From an uncultured Sphingomonadaceae bacterium (lineage in GTDB: Bacteria; Pseudomonadota; Alphaproteobacteria; Sphingomonadales; Sphingomonadaceae): a DNA stretch of 64,000 nt. Below are positions 1,578-15,400 of the stretch, in pieces. The stretch covers positions 930,001 through 994,000 of the forward strand of contig CANMWO010000001.1 in NCBI GenBank assembly GCA_947501695.1, in the 5' to 3' direction. How positions within the stretch are numbered: the stretch's first letter is position 1; each line of letters starts with the position of its first letter. The notes beneath the pieces are model-generated. The model made no database searches and had not been told where the DNA came from. It saw only the letters and a program-made list of their open reading frames with translations. The position numbers and the translations under genes are program-made.

Positions 1578-2974
1578 AGCGGTTGCTCCCTAAAAGTCTA
1601 ATCGGTCAGCTTTTGGCGTTGGTCGCGATCACATTGCTGATTGCGCAAACGATCAATATCGTGCTGCTCTATCGCGGTGCGCAAAATCAGAAAATGATAG
1701 AAGCCTCAGTCTCTGCTGTCGGTAGAATTTCGGGCGAAGTTGAACGAATAAACGAACGCGGTTTTCGTGAGCGTCGATTTCGGAAAGATGGCAGCCCACG
1801 CAAGCGCAGGAACTGGCCCTCAATTACCGCCAAAAGCTCCATAGATACCGGACAGCAGCGATTGCCAGCGGTGGAAGAGCGCGCAGCCCAGGCCTTTGAA
1901 AATATGGGAATTGATTTACAGGCGGTGGAAGTTGCGCTGGTGGATAAGTTACCAGCCAACATGACCAATAGCGTAGTAGGCTTAGGTCGCGAACGGCGAA
2001 GGCTTCGGGCTATTGGGTATCGCGGTCCCCCTAATCGGGTTGATGGATATATCATCATGTCCGCACAAGTAGCTGACGGGCAATGGCTGAACATTGCATC
2101 GGCGATACGAAACCGCAATCCTCGACTTATCCAGACCCTGTTGGCTCAGACTGCTGTTATATACTTGATATTGCTAATCCCGCTTATCTGGTTGGGACGG
2201 AACATATCCCGCCCGTTGAAGGCACTTACCAAAGCAGCTGAAAATTTCAGGCCGGGATCAAGCGAACCGATTGAAGAAAGCGGGCCTCCTGACACGAAGC
2301 AGCTCATCGCAGCGTTTAACGATATGAACGGGCGTGTTGGCGCGTTGATCGATGAAAAAGACGTGATGCTGGGCGCGATTGGTCATGACCTCCGTACTCC
2401 TCTGGCCGCCTTGCGCGTGCGCATTGAAAGCGTTGACGATGATAATGAACGCGAACGAATGATTGCCGGCATAGACGATATGGACCGGACGCTGGACGAT
2501 ATATTGTCGCTGGCGCGGCTAGGCCGAGCGGATGAAACGGCTGAGCCTACGGATATTAGCGCCCTGATAGAAACAGTGGCTGACGAATATTCCGATATGG
2601 GCGAGCAGGTTTCCTTTACCCGCAGCGGCCGCATAACGGCCAACATTCGCGCCACGTTAATCCGCCGCGCACTGCGGAACCTGATCGGTAATGCCGTGAA
2701 ATATGGCAAGCGGGCAGCAATTACTGTGGATAAAACCGACGATAAGCTGTTGATTCATGTTGATGATGAAGGCCCTGGCATTGCGGAGGATCAATTTGAA
2801 GCCATGTTCGAACCCTTTGTCCGCGCGGAGAAATCGCGTAATCGCGAAACCGGTGGATCAGGGCTGGGCCTTACACTGGCCCGCGCGATTGTCCGCGATC
2901 ACGGCGGCGATGTGGAGCTGAAAAACCGAGAAGAAGGCGGATTGCGAGCATCGTTGATGCTCAATCTAATATAG
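1574..2974 (+). CDS. Sensor histidine kinase of the adjacent two-component system
   Basis: Inner-membrane sensor kinase of 466 aa with two transmembrane segments (about 9-33 and 188-207) around a basic, Arg-rich periplasmic domain. A HAMP linker follows, then a HisKA domain with phospho-accepting H271 in GAIGHDLRTPLA. The HATPase domain has the N box RNLIGNAVKYG, G1 box DEGPGIAED and G2 box GGSGLGLTLA. An upstream ATG at 1532 lies inside the regulator; the ATG at 1574 overlaps the regulator stop and is the natural start. The 3' end overlaps the convergent motB by 14 bp. The periplasmic domain is not one I recognise, so the stimulus is unknown. Confidence 0.94.
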   Translation: MKRLLPKSLIGQLLALVAITLLIAQTINIVLLYRGAQNQKMIEASVSAVGRISGEVERINERGFRERRFRKDGSPRKRRNWPSITAKSSIDTGQQRLPAVEERAAQAFENMGIDLQAVEVALVDKLPANMTNSVVGLGRERRRLRAIGYRGPPNRVDGYIIMSAQVADGQWLNIASAIRNRNPRLIQTLLAQTAVIYLILLIPLIWLGRNISRPLKALTKAAENFRPGSSEPIEESGPPDTKQLIAAFNDMNGRVGALIDEKDVMLGAIGHDLRTPLAALRVRIESVDDDNERERMIAGIDDMDRTLDDILSLARLGRADETAEPTDISALIETVADEYSDMGEQVSFTRSGRITANIRATLIRRALRNLIGNAVKYGKRAAITVDKTDDKLLIHVDDEGPGIAEDQFEAMFEPFVRAEKSRNRETGGSGLGLTLARAIVRDHGGDVELKNREEGGLRASLMLNLI

Positions 2975-3833
2975 GTTCTGCCTGCCAACCCAAAGTTATT
3001 GAAATTCTGCGGTTGCGAGGATCATAGATGTCATGCGGCGTATAGGGTTCCCGGTCGGCGACACCCTCTATCCTGAAAAAGGCAACGGGGCGTATCCCGT
3101 TTTCTTGAAGCTCCTTGCGGGTTGCTTCGGCTCGAGCTGTTGAGAGCATCCAGTTGTTCATGGTGCGTCCAGAAGAAAAGGGCAGGGCATCGGTATGACC
3201 TCTTACCATCAACGGGTTAGGCGCCGGCTTAATGGCCTGCGCGACTTCACGCAGTAATTGCCGAGCGCGAGGCAATAAAGTGTCCGTAGCAAGAGCGAAC
3301 ATAGAAAAATCTGCTTTATCGATGAGCTCTATACGCAACCCTTCTCGCGTCTCAGTAAAGCGGACATTCTTATATAGCTCCCTGAGGTTTTCACTATCAC
3401 GGAGTTGCTGTTCAATCCGGCGCTTTATCTCTTCAAACTGTGCTCGATCTTCTTGGATAATGTTTCCGGTGTCGACATTATTGTCATTAGTACTGTGCTG
3501 AGGAATGCTTAATGTGCGTTCGCCAACTTGCCGTGCGCGGCTGCGATAATCTTCGTCTGACAGGATCGTATCTCCTCCGAACATGCCTTGAGCGCCCGCA
3601 CTATTGTTGCGCATTTGAATCAATGTCGGTGTAAAATATTCGGCCAAAGCTTCTCGTTCTTGGTCATCGGTTGCACCGAGCAGCCACAGCAGAAGAAAGA
3701 AGGCCATCATGGCTGTGACGAAATCAGCATAGGCAACTTTCCATGCACCTGCCGGGCGTGAGTGGCCTGTTTCCGCCATAATTTTTTTGACAATTATGGG
3801 TCTGAGTTCTTCTCTATTTTTGCCGCGGGCCAT
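2961..3833 (-). CDS. motB: Flagellar motor stator protein MotB
   Basis: Peptidoglycan-anchored half of the proton-driven flagellar stator (290 aa). A basic cytoplasmic N-terminus is followed by one transmembrane helix (about 33-52) carrying the proton-binding Asp D37 in KVAYADFVTAMMAFF. The C-terminal OmpA-like domain (about 165-285) contains the peptidoglycan-binding core RGHTDALPF and the downstream NNWMLSTARA segment. It lies 2 nt downstream of motA, as expected for a coupled pair at the end of the flg operon. The sequence around D37 and the LLWLLGATDDQE segment resemble H+-type MotB. It converges on, and overlaps by 14 bp, the histidine-kinase gene. Confidence 0.94.
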   Translation of the reverse strand: MARGKNREELRPIIVKKIMAETGHSRPAGAWKVAYADFVTAMMAFFLLLWLLGATDDQEREALAEYFTPTLIQMRNNSAGAQGMFGGDTILSDEDYRSRARQVGERTLSIPQHSTNDNNVDTGNIIQEDRAQFEEIKRRIEQQLRDSENLRELYKNVRFTETREGLRIELIDKADFSMFALATDTLLPRARQLLREVAQAIKPAPNPLMVRGHTDALPFSSGRTMNNWMLSTARAEATRKELQENGIRPVAFFRIEGVADREPYTPHDIYDPRNRRISITLGWQAEPILD

Positions 3834-3835
3834 CG

Positions 3836-4699
3836 CTAGTTTCCACGTATGCCATCAAACACGTCTACAAAAGCGGGCTGGTTGGTGCGTATCAGCCCGG
3901 ATCGTGCGGCTTCGATAACCAGGGGTTGCGGGTGGCCATGCAGGGAAGCGACGATAATCTGTTTAACAATATGATATATGGCATTATCGCTTTCGATCAC
4001 TTGACGCGAGCGTCCGGCCATGGGGCCAACAAAACCATAAGATAATAACACACCGAGAAATGTGCCGACTAATGCGGACCCAATCATCGCCCCCAATATT
4101 TCAGGCGGTTGATCGATGGCTCCCATGGTTTTGACGACACCCAAAACAGCCGCGACGATTCCTAGTGCAGGCAAGGCATCGGCAAGATTTTGGAGTTTAT
4201 CTGCGGGAGCGATAGCCTCATCATGTGTGGTTTTGAGGCTGTTGTCCATGACGTCCTCAACTGCATAGGGGTCGAGCTTACCGGAGGAAACTACAACCAA
4301 TCGAAGCGTGTCGCAGATCAGGAAAATCAAATTTTCATCTTCCAGCAGCTTGGGGTATTCGGCGAAGATAATTGAGTTGTGCGGATCTTCAATATGCTTT
4401 TCAAGCACTAACGGGCTGTCGGAGCGCAGTATTTTCATCAGTTTTGAGACGAGGAAAATGCAATCGAGGAAGTCGACTTTGCTATATTTGGGTCCTTTGA
4501 AAACACGCGTAACGCCGCCAAACAGTTGTTTCAAGCCATCAGCGTTGTTACCGACGATCAGGCCGCCAACAGCTGCGCCGCCGATAATGCCCATCTCAAT
4601 GGGTAGAGCTTGGATCACCGCATTGATATTTCCGCCGGACAGCGTGAATATACCAAAGACCATGACGAGTAGGATGACGATACCGATCGCTGCAAACAT
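3836..4699 (-). CDS. motA: Flagellar motor stator protein MotA
   Basis: Inner-membrane ion-channel subunit of the flagellar stator (287 aa, typical MotA length). It has four predicted membrane segments: two near the N-terminus (about 1-21 and 34-52) and two flanking the motif ADALPALGIVAAVLGVVKTM (about 170-225). A cytoplasmic loop for contact with FliG lies between the pairs. An AGGAAA ribosome site precedes the ATG. It follows flgL after 88 nt, so motAB may have its own promoter or read through from the flg operon. Together with MotB it should form the main stator; a second, smaller MotA-like protein is encoded at 13.1 kb. Confidence 0.95.
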   Translation of the reverse strand: MFAAIGIVILLVMVFGIFTLSGGNINAVIQALPIEMGIIGGAAVGGLIVGNNADGLKQLFGGVTRVFKGPKYSKVDFLDCIFLVSKLMKILRSDSPLVLEKHIEDPHNSIIFAEYPKLLEDENLIFLICDTLRLVVVSSGKLDPYAVEDVMDNSLKTTHDEAIAPADKLQNLADALPALGIVAAVLGVVKTMGAIDQPPEILGAMIGSALVGTFLGVLLSYGFVGPMAGRSRQVIESDNAIYHIVKQIIVASLHGHPQPLVIEAARSGLIRTNQPAFVDVFDGIRGN

Positions 4700-12501: not shown

Positions 12502-12846
12502 CTATTCACCCTTCATCGCGCGACGAAGCGTGCCGAGGCGGCCATCGAGAAAAGATAAAGTAGTGCGATATTGCACAGCGTTTTCCGCGAAGAGCGTTTG
12601 TTCGGTTGACAGTTCAACCGTGTTGCCATCCATGGCAGGCTGTAGAGGGATGCGATAACCGATATGGCTCGTCGCGCTGTCGCTTAGTGTGGTTCCATCA
12701 ACAACCGATGCGATGGCCTTGTCAAAGTCCAGATCGCGGGCCTTGAAATGAGGCGTAGCTGCATTGGCGATATTGGATGCCAGCATATTGAGTCGCTGCG
12801 ATCGCAGCGCCAGCGCATCCCCGTAAATACCGAATATCTTGTCCAT
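12502..12846 (-). CDS. flgB: Flagellar proximal rod protein FlgB
   Basis: Rod protein of 114 aa and first gene of the leftward flg operon. It shows the FlgB blocks LALRSQRLNMLASNIANAAT with PHFKARDLDF, and the ending LFAENAVQYRTTLSFLDGRL, though shortened relative to E. coli FlgB. A near-perfect sigma-54 promoter lies 91-105 nt upstream (12937-12951, minus strand), so this is the head of a sigma-54-dependent unit of at least flgBCDEFGHIJKL. Confidence 0.94.
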   Translation of the reverse strand: MDKIFGIYGDALALRSQRLNMLASNIANAATPHFKARDLDFDKAIASVVDGTTLSDSATSHIGYRIPLQPAMDGNTVELSTEQTLFAENAVQYRTTLSFLDGRLGTLRRAMKGE

Positions 12847-12936
12847 GACTGGAACCGATGCTCCCTTTGTTCAAGGTTAAACGAGTGCCTGCGCAATCCG
12901 TTTTGAAAGGCAGAGCGTGTTTGTCCAAGTCACTCA

Positions 12937-12951
12937 GCAAAGGGTGTGCCA
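12937..12951 (-). promoter_or_regulatory. Sigma-54 promoter for the flgB operon
   Basis: Read on the minus strand the site is TGGCACACCCTTTGC. It matches the -24 (TGGCAC) and -12 (TTGC) boxes with the required N5 spacing. The -12 element is about 90 nt upstream of the flgB start codon. The same pattern and spacing recur before flhA and fliE. Confidence 0.9.
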
Positions 12952-13065
12952 AAGTCCTAATGTCCAGCATTTCTGCCTTTCTTCCGATACGATCAGTTCA
13001 ATGCGTCAAATTATTGCGACATTTTTTTGTCAGTTTGCGCCATTTATTTGGCACTGCCATATTCT

Positions 13066-13728
13066 ATGAAGCCGGAGTTTGACGTGGAGTCGTTGATCGC
13101 CCTTATTGATCCGCTTGCTCTAGCTCTGGTTTGGATAGGGTCGATTGCCGTGGTAGGCCTGCAAGAGGGACGAGCGGGTTTGCTTCAAAGCTTTTCGGCT
13201 TGGCAAGCCCTTGTTCGTTCTGACCCCGCTAGCGATGCACTATCGGCGCGACAGGCATTTCGCCGAGTGGAATCCATTGTTGATACAAAGGGTCTGCAAT
13301 GCATTGATCGCGTCGAAGCGGATAACAGCTTTGTTGCGCATGCCGTTGCCTATCTTGCAAGCGAGCAGGACGTCGGGCGGTTCGCCGCCTGGGCCGAACT
13401 TAATCTGGGTGACCGCGAAAGGCGCCATAACAATATTGTTCGTTTCTGGATGGCGGTTGCGGATGTGTCTCCAGCGATTGGAATGGTGGGGACTATTTTT
13501 GGCCTTGTGCGTCTGTTTTCCGATCTTGATAACGCAGCAAATATGGGTTCGGCGATGGCGTTAGCATTGCTGACAACGCTCTATGGGTTGCTACTATCCA
13601 ATGTTATTGCTGCACCGATATCTTATCGTTTCCAACGGCTTTCATCGGAAGAGTTGAAATGGCAGAGGGTTACAACGGACAAGCTAATTGCACTCGCACT
13701 TCGAAACGAAAAGCAAGCATGCTCGTAA
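13066..13728 (+). CDS. Accessory MotA/PomA-like stator protein
   Basis: MotA/TolQ/ExbB-family membrane protein of about 220 aa. The C-terminal half has a strong MotA/PomA signature: ADVSPAIGMVGTIFGLV, then SAMALALLTTLYGLLLSNV, covering the last two channel helices. The N-terminal part shows only one obvious hydrophobic helix (LIDPLALALVWIGSIAVVG), so the protein is shorter than the motA product at 3.8 kb (287 aa). The start is uncertain: ATG 13066 has no clear ribosome site, whereas GTG 13084 has GGAG at 13074-13077, 6 nt upstream, and may be the true start. The gene overlaps a MotB-like gene by 10 bp and sits between flgB and flgA. A second stator or a flagellum-linked proton channel is the likely role. 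Confidence 0.82.
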   Translation: MKPEFDVESLIALIDPLALALVWIGSIAVVGLQEGRAGLLQSFSAWQALVRSDPASDALSARQAFRRVESIVDTKGLQCIDRVEADNSFVAHAVAYLASEQDVGRFAAWAELNLGDRERRHNNIVRFWMAVADVSPAIGMVGTIFGLVRLFSDLDNAANMGSAMALALLTTLYGLLLSNVIAAPISYRFQRLSSEELKWQRVTTDKLIALALRNEKQACS

Positions 13729-14210
13729 ACCGTGCCAATCGATGGTGCCTTGCTTTTGCTGACCTAAGCCTATTGATGCTTGGCTTTGTAGTTTTATCCT
13801 TTAGCCGCCCATCAACCGTCACAGATGTTGCTTCGATCGCAGCACCGTCGAAGAAGTACGAATGGCCTACTGCATCGCTTTTTGAACCCAGCGAAGCGAT
13901 GCTCACTATGACGGGGAAAGAAAAGGCCAAGGTGGTTGCCAATTCTATCGATGAGCGCTCTGATCGGATAACATTGTCGATCAACGGTGACGCTCAGGCA
14001 TCGGCAAGGCTTGACGCATGGGAATTATCTGCGGCGCGCATGGCTTCTTTTGCACGTGCATTAAAGGATAATGGTGTAGAAGATTTTGCAATCACATTTG
14101 GCGAACAGAACCAAATCGATAATCATGCGCCGCAACAACTAATCGTTTCCGTCGGATATGATCTCCCGAATATTACAGCTGCGGATGGCACGGGGTTTGC
14201 TTCTCAATAA
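13719..14210 (+). CDS. Small MotB-like protein, partner of the accessory stator
   Basis: 163-aa protein starting at ATG 13719, inside the 3' end of the MotA-like gene. One membrane helix near the N-terminus, RWCLAFADLSLLMLGFVVL, keeps the ion-binding Asp (D15) in the FAD motif of MotB/PomB. The C-terminal part has a shortened OmpA-like region (LDAWELSAARMASFARAL, then an ITFGEQNQ segment). I cannot find the peptidoglycan-contact motif GHTD that is obvious in the main MotB. It is therefore either a stator B subunit with a reduced anchor or a related channel partner. Followed by flgA 23 nt downstream, so part of a flagellar unit. Confidence 0.75.
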   Translation: MLVNRANRWCLAFADLSLLMLGFVVLSFSRPSTVTDVASIAAPSKKYEWPTASLFEPSEAMLTMTGKEKAKVVANSIDERSDRITLSINGDAQASARLDAWELSAARMASFARALKDNGVEDFAITFGEQNQIDNHAPQQLIVSVGYDLPNITAADGTGFASQ

Positions 14211-14233
14211 GCATCAACAAAGGAGAAGTGATT

Positions 14234-14752
14234 GTGTCGATTGTGAAACAAATAGTCTTGGCTGGGAGCGCATTGATTGGGATTTCGGGTGCGCCGGTTC
14301 ATGGGAAAACGATAGAACCCCTAACGGCACTTGAACAGCAGTTGGCGTTATTTCTAGGTAAACAGGAAGGCGAAGTTGGTGGCGCTCGAAGCAATATTGA
14401 TCCGCGGTTGAGATTAACGAAATGCACCCAACCACCTATGTTCGAAATGCGGAGTAAAAACCTGGTCATCATAAAATGTGAACCGCTTAACTGGCGTATT
14501 CCGATAGCGCTCGTGCAGCCTGTGGTTAGCAGTCAGGCCTCTTCAAGACGGCAGATGATCGTAAGGCGCGGACAACCGGTATTGCTGATCATAGAGAAAA
14601 ACGGGTTCATGATTTCTCGGCAGATGCATGCTGACCGAAACGGCGAAATCGGCGATATTATCCCCGTCCGAGCGGCACGAAGATCATCTCCGATATTAGT
14701 CGAAATAACAGGGCAGGGTCGAGTTTCCCTCCCATCTTATCAGGCAGACTAA
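14234..14752 (+). CDS. flgA: Flagellar P-ring assembly chaperone FlgA
   Basis: Periplasmic chaperone for FlgI polymerisation into the P-ring (about 172 aa). The N-terminus is a signal peptide (IVKQIVLAGSALIGISGAPV). The C-terminal SAF-like region includes RRGQPVLLIIEKNGFMISRQ and the ending DIIPVRAARRSSPILVEITG, typical of FlgA. Two in-frame GTG starts exist: 14228 (only 2 nt after AGGAG) and 14234 (8 nt after it); I chose the second. It follows the MotB-like gene and precedes flgM. Confidence 0.88.
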   Translation: MSIVKQIVLAGSALIGISGAPVHGKTIEPLTALEQQLALFLGKQEGEVGGARSNIDPRLRLTKCTQPPMFEMRSKNLVIIKCEPLNWRIPIALVQPVVSSQASSRRQMIVRRGQPVLLIIEKNGFMISRQMHADRNGEIGDIIPVRAARRSSPILVEITGQGRVSLPSYQAD

Positions 14753-14807: not shown

Positions 14808-15095
14808 ATGATAGACAAGATAAACTCGGGACGGAGCCCGTCAGCTAGCACGGGACGCATCGATATTGTTCGGCCATTGAGCAAATCTAACAATCCAGTA
14901 AGTTCCAGCATAAAAGAAGCAGCTGGATCTTTAGCCGGGACCGTTAAACATATGGCGCAACAAGGCGCACCGATTGATAATGATCATGTCCACTTCATTC
15001 GAAATGCGATAGCGGATGGCCAATACCCCGTTGATGCTATGTTGATCGCTGACAAGATGATTGTATTTGATCGGTCTGGCACCGACGTTTCATAA
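14808..15095 (+). CDS. flgM: Anti-sigma-28 factor FlgM
   Basis: Small exported anti-sigma factor (95 aa) that holds FliA (sigma-28) until hook completion. The N-terminus is low-complexity and Ser-rich, expected to be disordered. The C-terminal half matches FlgM: HFIRNAIADGQYPVDAMLIA with DKMIVFDRS, the helices that wrap sigma-28. AGGAG lies 7-8 nt before the ATG. fliA itself is encoded at 17.7 kb, so the antagonist pair is in the same supercluster. Confidence 0.92.
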   Translation: MIDKINSGRSPSASTGRIDIVRPLSKSNNPVSSSIKEAAGSLAGTVKHMAQQGAPIDNDHVHFIRNAIADGQYPVDAMLIADKMIVFDRSGTDVS

Positions 15096-15097
15096 TC

Positions 15098-15400
15098 ATG
15101 CTATTGTTGGATCGTCTCGAACAAGCTTTTAACGACTTGAATGATGCCCTGGACGGGCAAGACCCGGAGTCGATCATCGCAGCCGCTGCGGCCATTCGGC
15201 CTTTGGTGTCCGAGATAGAAAAAACGGGCGTTTGGCATGACAATGATGCGGTCAAAAACAGATTGATTGCCCTGTCAAAACTTATTGATGCTGCTCGGTT
15301 CCGGGTCAATAAATTGACGAATTTAAACGAACAGCGCGCCAATAATCTGTCGCTTGCTTTGGGCGTGGGTATATCATCAACCTACGATAGGTTGTTGTAA
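15098..15400 (+). CDS. flgN: FlgN-like flagellar export chaperone
   Basis: 100-aa all-helical protein encoded 2 nt after flgM. It fits FlgN by size, position (flgA-flgM-flgN is the common order) and heptad-rich sequence: LLLDRLEQAFNDLNDALD at the start and a C-terminal RFRVNKLTNLNEQRANNLS helix with the L-x-x-N-x-x-R pattern of FlgN. FlgN escorts FlgK and FlgL to the export gate. Sequence identity to studied FlgN must be low, so the name is based mainly on context. Confidence 0.72.
   Translation: MLLLDRLEQAFNDLNDALDGQDPESIIAAAAAIRPLVSEIEKTGVWHDNDAVKNRLIALSKLIDAARFRVNKLTNLNEQRANNLSLALGVGISSTYDRLL

Follow-up and report, generated by a model that had tools for sequence, protein, structure and literature searches.

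Flagellar stators (FIT) have been defined by four features, and a four-helix A subunit, a plug with its linker and an OmpA anchor are treated as diagnostic stator traits that vary little (PMC12505986, in the parts available to us; the string 'sphingo' does not occur in its main text). At the level of single residues, the ion path is formed by T158, T185 and T186 of PomA together with D24 of PomB, and the contact with FliG involves R88, K89, R232, D114 and E96 of PomA, among which R88, D114 and E96 are indispensable for motility (PMC10374538, likewise in the parts available to us). The stretch of DNA analysed here (the window, 64,000 nucleotides from an uncultured Sphingomonadaceae bacterium) encodes a complete MotA and MotB and, in addition, a second pair of related proteins in which several of these traits are reduced. 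Our literature searches returned no paper on this reduced pair.

Locus and distribution of the reduced pair

A preliminary description of the window had placed a reduced MotA/MotB-like pair between flgB and flgA and a complete motAB at the other end of the flg operon, and both placements hold (Table 1). The two reduced genes, here mAs and mBs, overlap by 10 bp, and mBs is separated by only 17 bp from flgA, after which flgM follows. On the minus strand, flgB, flgC and the remaining flg operon lead to the complete motA and motB at the far end (the names of the flg genes between flgC and motAB are given from position and the order shared with a second cluster of the same genome, described below). 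The small open reading frame (ORF) after flgM gave no family match in the profile search. Pattern scans showed a sigma-54-type site reading towards flgB and no such pattern towards mAs in 12800-13100; of the 37 named loci scanned (L166-L202), 35 have a TGGCAC-N5-TTGC site towards flgB, as does the window, a looser sigma-54-type site faces the reduced pair in three, and no promoter of the pair itself was identified by the scans of the window and the named loci. An ORF of 240-356 residues with a lytic-transglycosylase-like motif lies downstream of flgM in several loci (among them L147, L151-L153, L158, L162-L165 and L170); the motif pattern picks it out whether or not a locus carries the pair, which gave no correlation, and did not find it in the window.

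Table 1 Features of the flagellar locus in the window
Feature	Position	Strand	Remarks
mAs, reduced MotA/PomA-like subunit	13066..13728	+	220 aa, ATG 13066, no TM1
mBs, reduced MotB-like subunit	13719..14210	+	163 aa, ATG 13719, degenerate OmpA-like domain
flgA, P-ring assembly chaperone	14228..14752	+	
flgM, anti-sigma-28 factor	14808..15095	+	
Small ORF after flgM	15098..15400	+	FlgN-like by position only
flgB	12502..12846	-	divergent neighbour upstream of mAs
Complete motA	3836..4699	-	TIGR03818, with MotA_N
Complete motB	2961..3833	-	plug and OmpA domain, GHTD present
Sigma-54-type site TGGCACACCCTTTGC	12937..12951	-	reads towards flgB; pattern match only

The preliminary description had also proposed a search for the pair next to flgA in other sphingomonads, and this search recognised it in 42 of 99 Sphingomonadaceae genomes, which fall into two groups: group 1 comprises the 26 of the 99 whose A match reaches at least 220 bits, and group 2 comprises 16 genomes, 15 with an A match of 85-111 bits and one (G079) with a weaker match confirmed by position. 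In group 1, flgB adjoins the A gene in 26/26 genomes, flgA was detected next in 24 (of the other two, one reaches a contig end and in one it was not found), and a reading of the B gene was obtained for 25. The group-2 loci that were fetched, from 13 of the 16 genomes, are all flanked by flgB and flgA, with roughly 0.9-1.7 kb between the pair and flgA in three of them. That the pair is a peculiarity of the window can be rejected on this conservation. Carriers with names include Sphingobium, Sphingomonas, Blastomonas, Novosphingopyxis and Sphingorhabdus, and the B gene was found in all 18 named-carrier loci tested. In S. wittichii RW1, Swit_1271 is listed as FlgB and Swit_1275 as FlgM (PMC3238334, in the part available to us), a spacing that would leave room for three genes, as the order A-B-flgA predicts.

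All 42 pair genomes encode FlhA (E 1e-200 or better) and 41 encode a full MotA. Conversely, 60 family genomes have both FlhA and a full MotA, and the pair was recognised in 41 of these and went unrecognised in 19. We read the loci of six of the 19 and found no pair there even at E 10; flgB adjoins flgA directly in five of the six. In a seventh (L152, genome G019), the place between flgB and flgA is taken by a MotA-like gene that looks degraded, with no MotB-like gene recognised, and this locus perhaps represents loss of the pair in progress.

Outside the family, no match above 200 bits was obtained in 385 genomes of the class or 398 of the phylum, the best A match being 188.5 bits; these sets contain some family members, up to seven candidates were scored per genome, and the threshold is strict enough that group-2 forms inside the family are missed too and diverged pairs elsewhere would escape. 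A MotB-like profile search of the class proved insensitive, overlooking the group-2 carrier G041. In the six outside-family loci that we read, the A-like protein has an extra N-terminal hydrophobic stretch, as in four-helix PomA-type proteins. We also observed a solitary gene of PomA type, with four helices in the copies scanned (L059, L100, L106 and L118, with neighbours read; L101-L120, gene only), which is flanked by ORFs named by eye as fliN-like and as an flbD-like sigma-54 activator, and no MotB gene lies beside it in L059, L100, L106 or L118. Three family genomes (G007, G052 and G056) gave PomA-like matches of this solitary type (123-144 bits; a fourth helix was seen only in G056) and were left out of the reduced-pair count.

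The genome of the window has a second flagellar cluster (G000:C1 430000-470000; L007 and L008), in largely the same gene order, which likewise contains a complete motAB of its own and, between flgB and flgA, a reduced pair. The two copies of the pair are 32 and 27 per cent identical by BLAST, below most of the genes common to both clusters. A duplicate FliC arrangement has been described as widespread in Sphingomonas genomes (PMC13015449, in the part available to us), in an article whose main text mentions neither motA nor motB. The low identity, the 19 of 60 flagellate genomes in which the pair went unrecognised and the apparently degraded A gene of L152 would all suit the view that the pair is what remains of a former second stator, now decaying and devoid of present function. 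We hold this to be very improbable: both clusters of one genome retain the pair, which argues that it is not a useless remnant, the channel residues are invariant across very diverged copies, and the dN/dS ratio is about 0.21 for both genes in the one comparison made (below).

Genome G036 contains the reduced pair and gave no MotA_N match; the three matches of a whole-genome search with PF01618 include the reduced gene, and the 20 kb read around the locus (L246) gave no match to flgJ, flgK, flgL, motA or motB past flgI, where repeats with transposase-like ORFs (by eye) were seen instead. We rejected this genome as proof that the pair can be a sole stator, since in those 20 kb no flg gene was matched after flgI and the repeats and transposase-like ORFs follow.

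The two subunits and their conserved residues

By its profile match (E 1.7e-19; 70.2 bits, above the cut-off of 22.9), mAs is a member of the MotA/TolQ/ExbB proton channel superfamily PF01618. Its best NCBIfam match is PomA (NF006527, E 4.3e-28, aligned from model position 29), and it falls short of the equivalog cut-offs for PomA (98.3 against 341 bits), for tolQ (23.5 against 221 bits; E 3.9e-5) and for exbB2 (14 against 135.35 bits). On the solved PomA, the alignment of the reduced-A family profile does not begin until residue 22-24, and the first helix is accordingly absent. Hydropathy agrees, with three peaks in mAs (11-29, 130-148 and 163-181) and, among 23 aligned family rows, three peaks in 21, two in two and four in none; the scan is crude, giving four peaks in six and three in one of seven four-helix relatives used as a control and five for the window's complete MotA. 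An upstream start restoring TM1 was considered and rejected, because the open frame from 12961 adds no convincing helix. The structure predicted for mAs (pLDDT 94.6) finds PomA and MotA chains as its nearest structural matches (PomA best, TMq 0.81), followed by ExbB (0.55), and its helices at 36-51, 54-75, 77-82 and 88-99, together with a long helix from 103, can be read as a retained expanded cytoplasmic domain, or torque-generating interface, with four or more helices. The suggestion that the MotA-like protein has one helix fewer is thus borne out by the PomA alignment, hydropathy and the model, each of which is without TM1.

mBs has a single transmembrane helix with Asp15 in the FADLS motif, and scores below the cut-offs for both OmpA (24 against 27.2 bits) and MotB_plug (16.5 against 24 bits). 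Its model (pLDDT 82.6) combines a single membrane helix with an OmpA-like fold that matches the periplasmic domains of MotB and OmpA in a structure search. Structure prediction of the separate subunits, by which the preliminary description could have been refuted, accordingly gives a divided outcome, as a full four-helix MotA is not predicted, whereas a largely complete OmpA fold is. What is short is the reach of the protein: 40 residues separate Asp15 from Phe55, where the domain starts. The distance is 30-56 residues in 35 of the 36 reduced B rows measured (out of 37 distinct group-1 rows) and 102 in one. It is longer in the complete MotB of both clusters of the genome, at 139 and 144 residues, and amounts to 82 and 99 in a further two proteins of MotB type. 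By this comparison the long linker of MotB is missing from mBs.

The peptidoglycan motif GHTD is absent from mBs, where the segment reads INGDAQ, and also from its counterpart in the second flagellar cluster. Across the 37 reduced-B homologs, however, all have the arginine that follows the LSxxR-type motif, and the aspartate 15 residues before it is kept in 19 (counted by spacing; 12 are without it, and a loose 'longer loop' class of six rows, of which L167 is doubtful, was left out of the kept count). We take these arginine and aspartate positions, from work on OmpA, to be the DAP-binding sites. The loss of GHTD claimed earlier stands for this protein and for the second-cluster copy, and at the level of the family the peptidoglycan site is eroded rather than absent. 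In the same way, the earlier phrase 'stator without a normal anchor' captures the short reach and the missing GHTD, but not the invariant arginine and the aspartate present in about half of the homologs; these residues indicate that wall anchoring is weakened rather than clearly absent. As far as the sequences tell, anchoring appears to have eroded in a graded way, and wall binding may be retained. In group 2 the periplasmic domain of B looks further reduced.

We then compared the A subunits at the positions known from PomA, using 39 group-1 and 13 group-2 rows, nine PomA rows and 14 other rows of four-helix (solitary) type; group-1 rows without an ATG start were excluded from A1 and A2. The equivalents of PomA P151, T158 and P199 are found in 39/39 group-1 and 13/13 group-2 rows, that of G189 is invariant across the same rows, and the T186 position is T or S in all 52. 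The membrane aspartate of B is likewise present in 37/37 distinct group-1 rows, and its motif in 13/13 group-2 loci fetched. The channel motif and channel aspartate that the preliminary description had noted are therefore retained well beyond this protein pair.

The rotor-facing positions behave differently. The R88 position is R in 9/9 PomA and 14/14 other four-helix-type rows, as opposed to 7/39 in group 1, where 15/39 are E or D, and 7/13 in group 2. At the D114 position, D occurs in all 23 PomA and solitary rows, in 25/39 of group 1 and in 0/13 of group 2. R232 is matched by R in 9/9 PomA, 11/14 other four-helix-type, 6/39 group-1 and 2/13 group-2 rows (counts that rest on a weak C-terminal alignment), K89 shows no conservation in group 1, and the E96 position is acidic in 38/39 group-1 and 6/13 group-2 rows. 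In mAs itself, positions 88, 89, 96 and 114 are D, T, D and S, and the rotor-contact charges of PomA (R88, K89, E96, D114 and R232) are not reproduced. Judged from these alignments, the reduced A subunit is a protein with nearly invariant channel positions in which most rotor-contact charges are not kept.

Between the window and its relative L166, the one comparison made, dN/dS is 0.208 for the A gene and 0.212 for the B gene; the ratios are 0.263 for flgA and 0.379 for flgM, and lower than in the pair for flgB (0.015), flgC (0.069) and the ORF after flgM (0.066). Together with the pattern of residue conservation, these values indicate that the channel is under selection and most of the rotor face is not.

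Possible functions of the reduced pair

The preliminary description had offered an auxiliary stator, a stator regulator or a proton channel for assembly. An auxiliary torque-generating stator, or a brake, that joins the C-ring of the complete MotAB under special conditions would be in keeping with a fold and closest relatives of PomA type, with the retained cytoplasmic bundle, with the acidic E96 position (38/39) and partial retention of D114 in group 1 and of R88 in group 2, and with the presence of FlhA in every pair genome. We nevertheless consider it unlikely. Most of the PomA charges required for motility (PMC10374538, in the parts available to us) are not conserved, which disfavours a normal auxiliary stator: R88, K89 and R232 are not conserved in group 1, the first of them being acidic in 15/39 rows, and group 2 has no equivalent of D114. 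The missing TM1, the short reach and the degenerate wall-binding site point the same way. Both sets of genes being encoded in the same cell and belonging to one superfamily, a reduced A or B could instead enter complexes with the complete MotA or MotB and modify ordinary stators; the conservation of A and B as an adjacent pair, and the fact that the complete MotA is of the other type, MotA1, make such mixing very unlikely.

The explanation that we favour, although we give it slightly less than an even chance, takes the pair for an ion motor of TolQR/ExbBD type of layout that descends from a stator, has been repurposed in the flagellum, does not push the C-ring and probably serves periplasmic assembly. 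A PomA/MotC-type stator would have been secondarily reduced to an ExbBD/TolQR-like layout, which the pair resembles in its lack of TM1, of a long linker and of conserved rotor charges, leaving a three-helix A subunit with its N terminus probably outside. The fold and the conserved channel lead us to expect an ion-driven 5:2 complex, most likely with about five A subunits around two B subunits. Ion flow through the conserved channel would rotate B's periplasmic domain or pull on it, and the force, instead of driving the C-ring as an ordinary stator does, would be passed through this short domain to something near the inner membrane or the wall, probably in the assembly or stabilisation of the rod and P-ring at the cell wall. 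The work is placed in the periplasm because the pair mostly shares an operon with flgA and all the genomes in which we recognised it have flagellar genes, and its operon with flgA suggests, by association, rod or P-ring assembly. A more specific form of this proposal, in which a stator reverted to an energiser of the Tol/Exb kind and became a dedicated motor for rod passage through the wall or P-ring placement together with FlgA, strikes us as improbable; our literature searches did not turn up a dedicated ion-powered periplasmic assembly motor as a class of flagellar component.

Several observations temper the motor reading. At least six flagellate relatives whose loci were read do without the pair, and the direct adjacency of flgB and flgA in five of six implies that P-ring assembly does not generally need it. 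The linkage to flgA need not mean a role at the P-ring either, considering the gaps of 0.9-1.7 kb and the presence of flgM after flgA. Some contact with the rotor may persist, given the retained PomA-like bundle, the acidic E96 position of group 1 and the R at the R88 position in 7/13 group-2 rows. The dN/dS values of the pair, above those of flgB, flgC and the ORF after flgM, also speak against this reading, as does a tree of A subunits (79 rows, 78 different) in which the reduced A proteins are interspersed with TolQ and ExbB, and the four-helix rows with MotA1; with long branches and unsettled bootstrap values, this tree neither roots nor dates the reduction.

Alternatively, the pair could be a regulator. 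Acting as a leak channel or as a decoy, it would adjust the assembly of stators, export or the expression of flagellar genes, and it might do so, for instance, by responding to contact with the envelope or to the flow of ions while the flagellum is being assembled. Such a role would make sense of channel residues that are kept as mechanical attachments erode, of a position ahead of both flgA and flgM and of an occurrence in only part of the flagellate genomes. It seems to us rather unlikely, in that no signalling part is visible in the sequence and the models of A and B each retain a structured domain outside the membrane. Of the three earlier proposals, then, the normal auxiliary stator has lost ground, and the present evidence does not divide an assembly motor from a regulator.

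With its channel kept, several stator traits lost or eroded and its genes still inside flagellar clusters, the pair amounts to a natural dissection of the parts of a stator needed for ion flow from those needed for torque. If the assembly role is true, it would add an energy-driven step to the building of the periplasmic part of the flagellum.

Relation to described ion-driven motors

Within the PF01618 superfamily, we do not file the reduced pair as a flagellar stator. The square fold with four transmembrane helices in A that belongs to the FIT definition is absent (three helices, no TM1), the rotor charges are not reproduced, and only one FIT feature, the cytoplasmic torque-generating interface seen in the mAs model, is clearly there. 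The pair shares with the solitary four-helix PomA-like gene of other families of the order the placement of a PomA-type A subunit inside a flagellar cluster, but the solitary gene keeps TM1, R88 and D114, sits in a different place and has no adjacent B that we could see.

ExbB and TolQ have three helices. The pair resembles ExbBD and TolQR in its three-helix A subunit, in a B subunit that is short and has little periplasmic domain, and in a presumed ion-driven 5:2 layout, and departs from them in that mAs is far nearer to PomA than to TolQ by E value and the domain of B is OmpA-related in its predicted fold. In the kind of work proposed, it can be likened to the gliding motor AglRQS, a MotAB-related motor that does something other than turn a C-ring (PMC9389320, in the part available to us), although AglRQS is a different system with different partners in different organisms.

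Closest to the pair in both sequence and fold are stators of the PomAB/MotCD type (FIT, TGI4 class; PMC12505986, in the parts available to us), which have in common with it the channel residues and cytoplasmic bundle of A, the membrane aspartate of B and an OmpA-related fold. The reduced pair differs from them in the absence of TM1, in rotor-contact charges that are mostly lost, in an Asp-to-domain distance of 40 residues against 82-144, in the loss of GHTD from this protein and in being encoded with flgA, with a separate complete motAB nearby.
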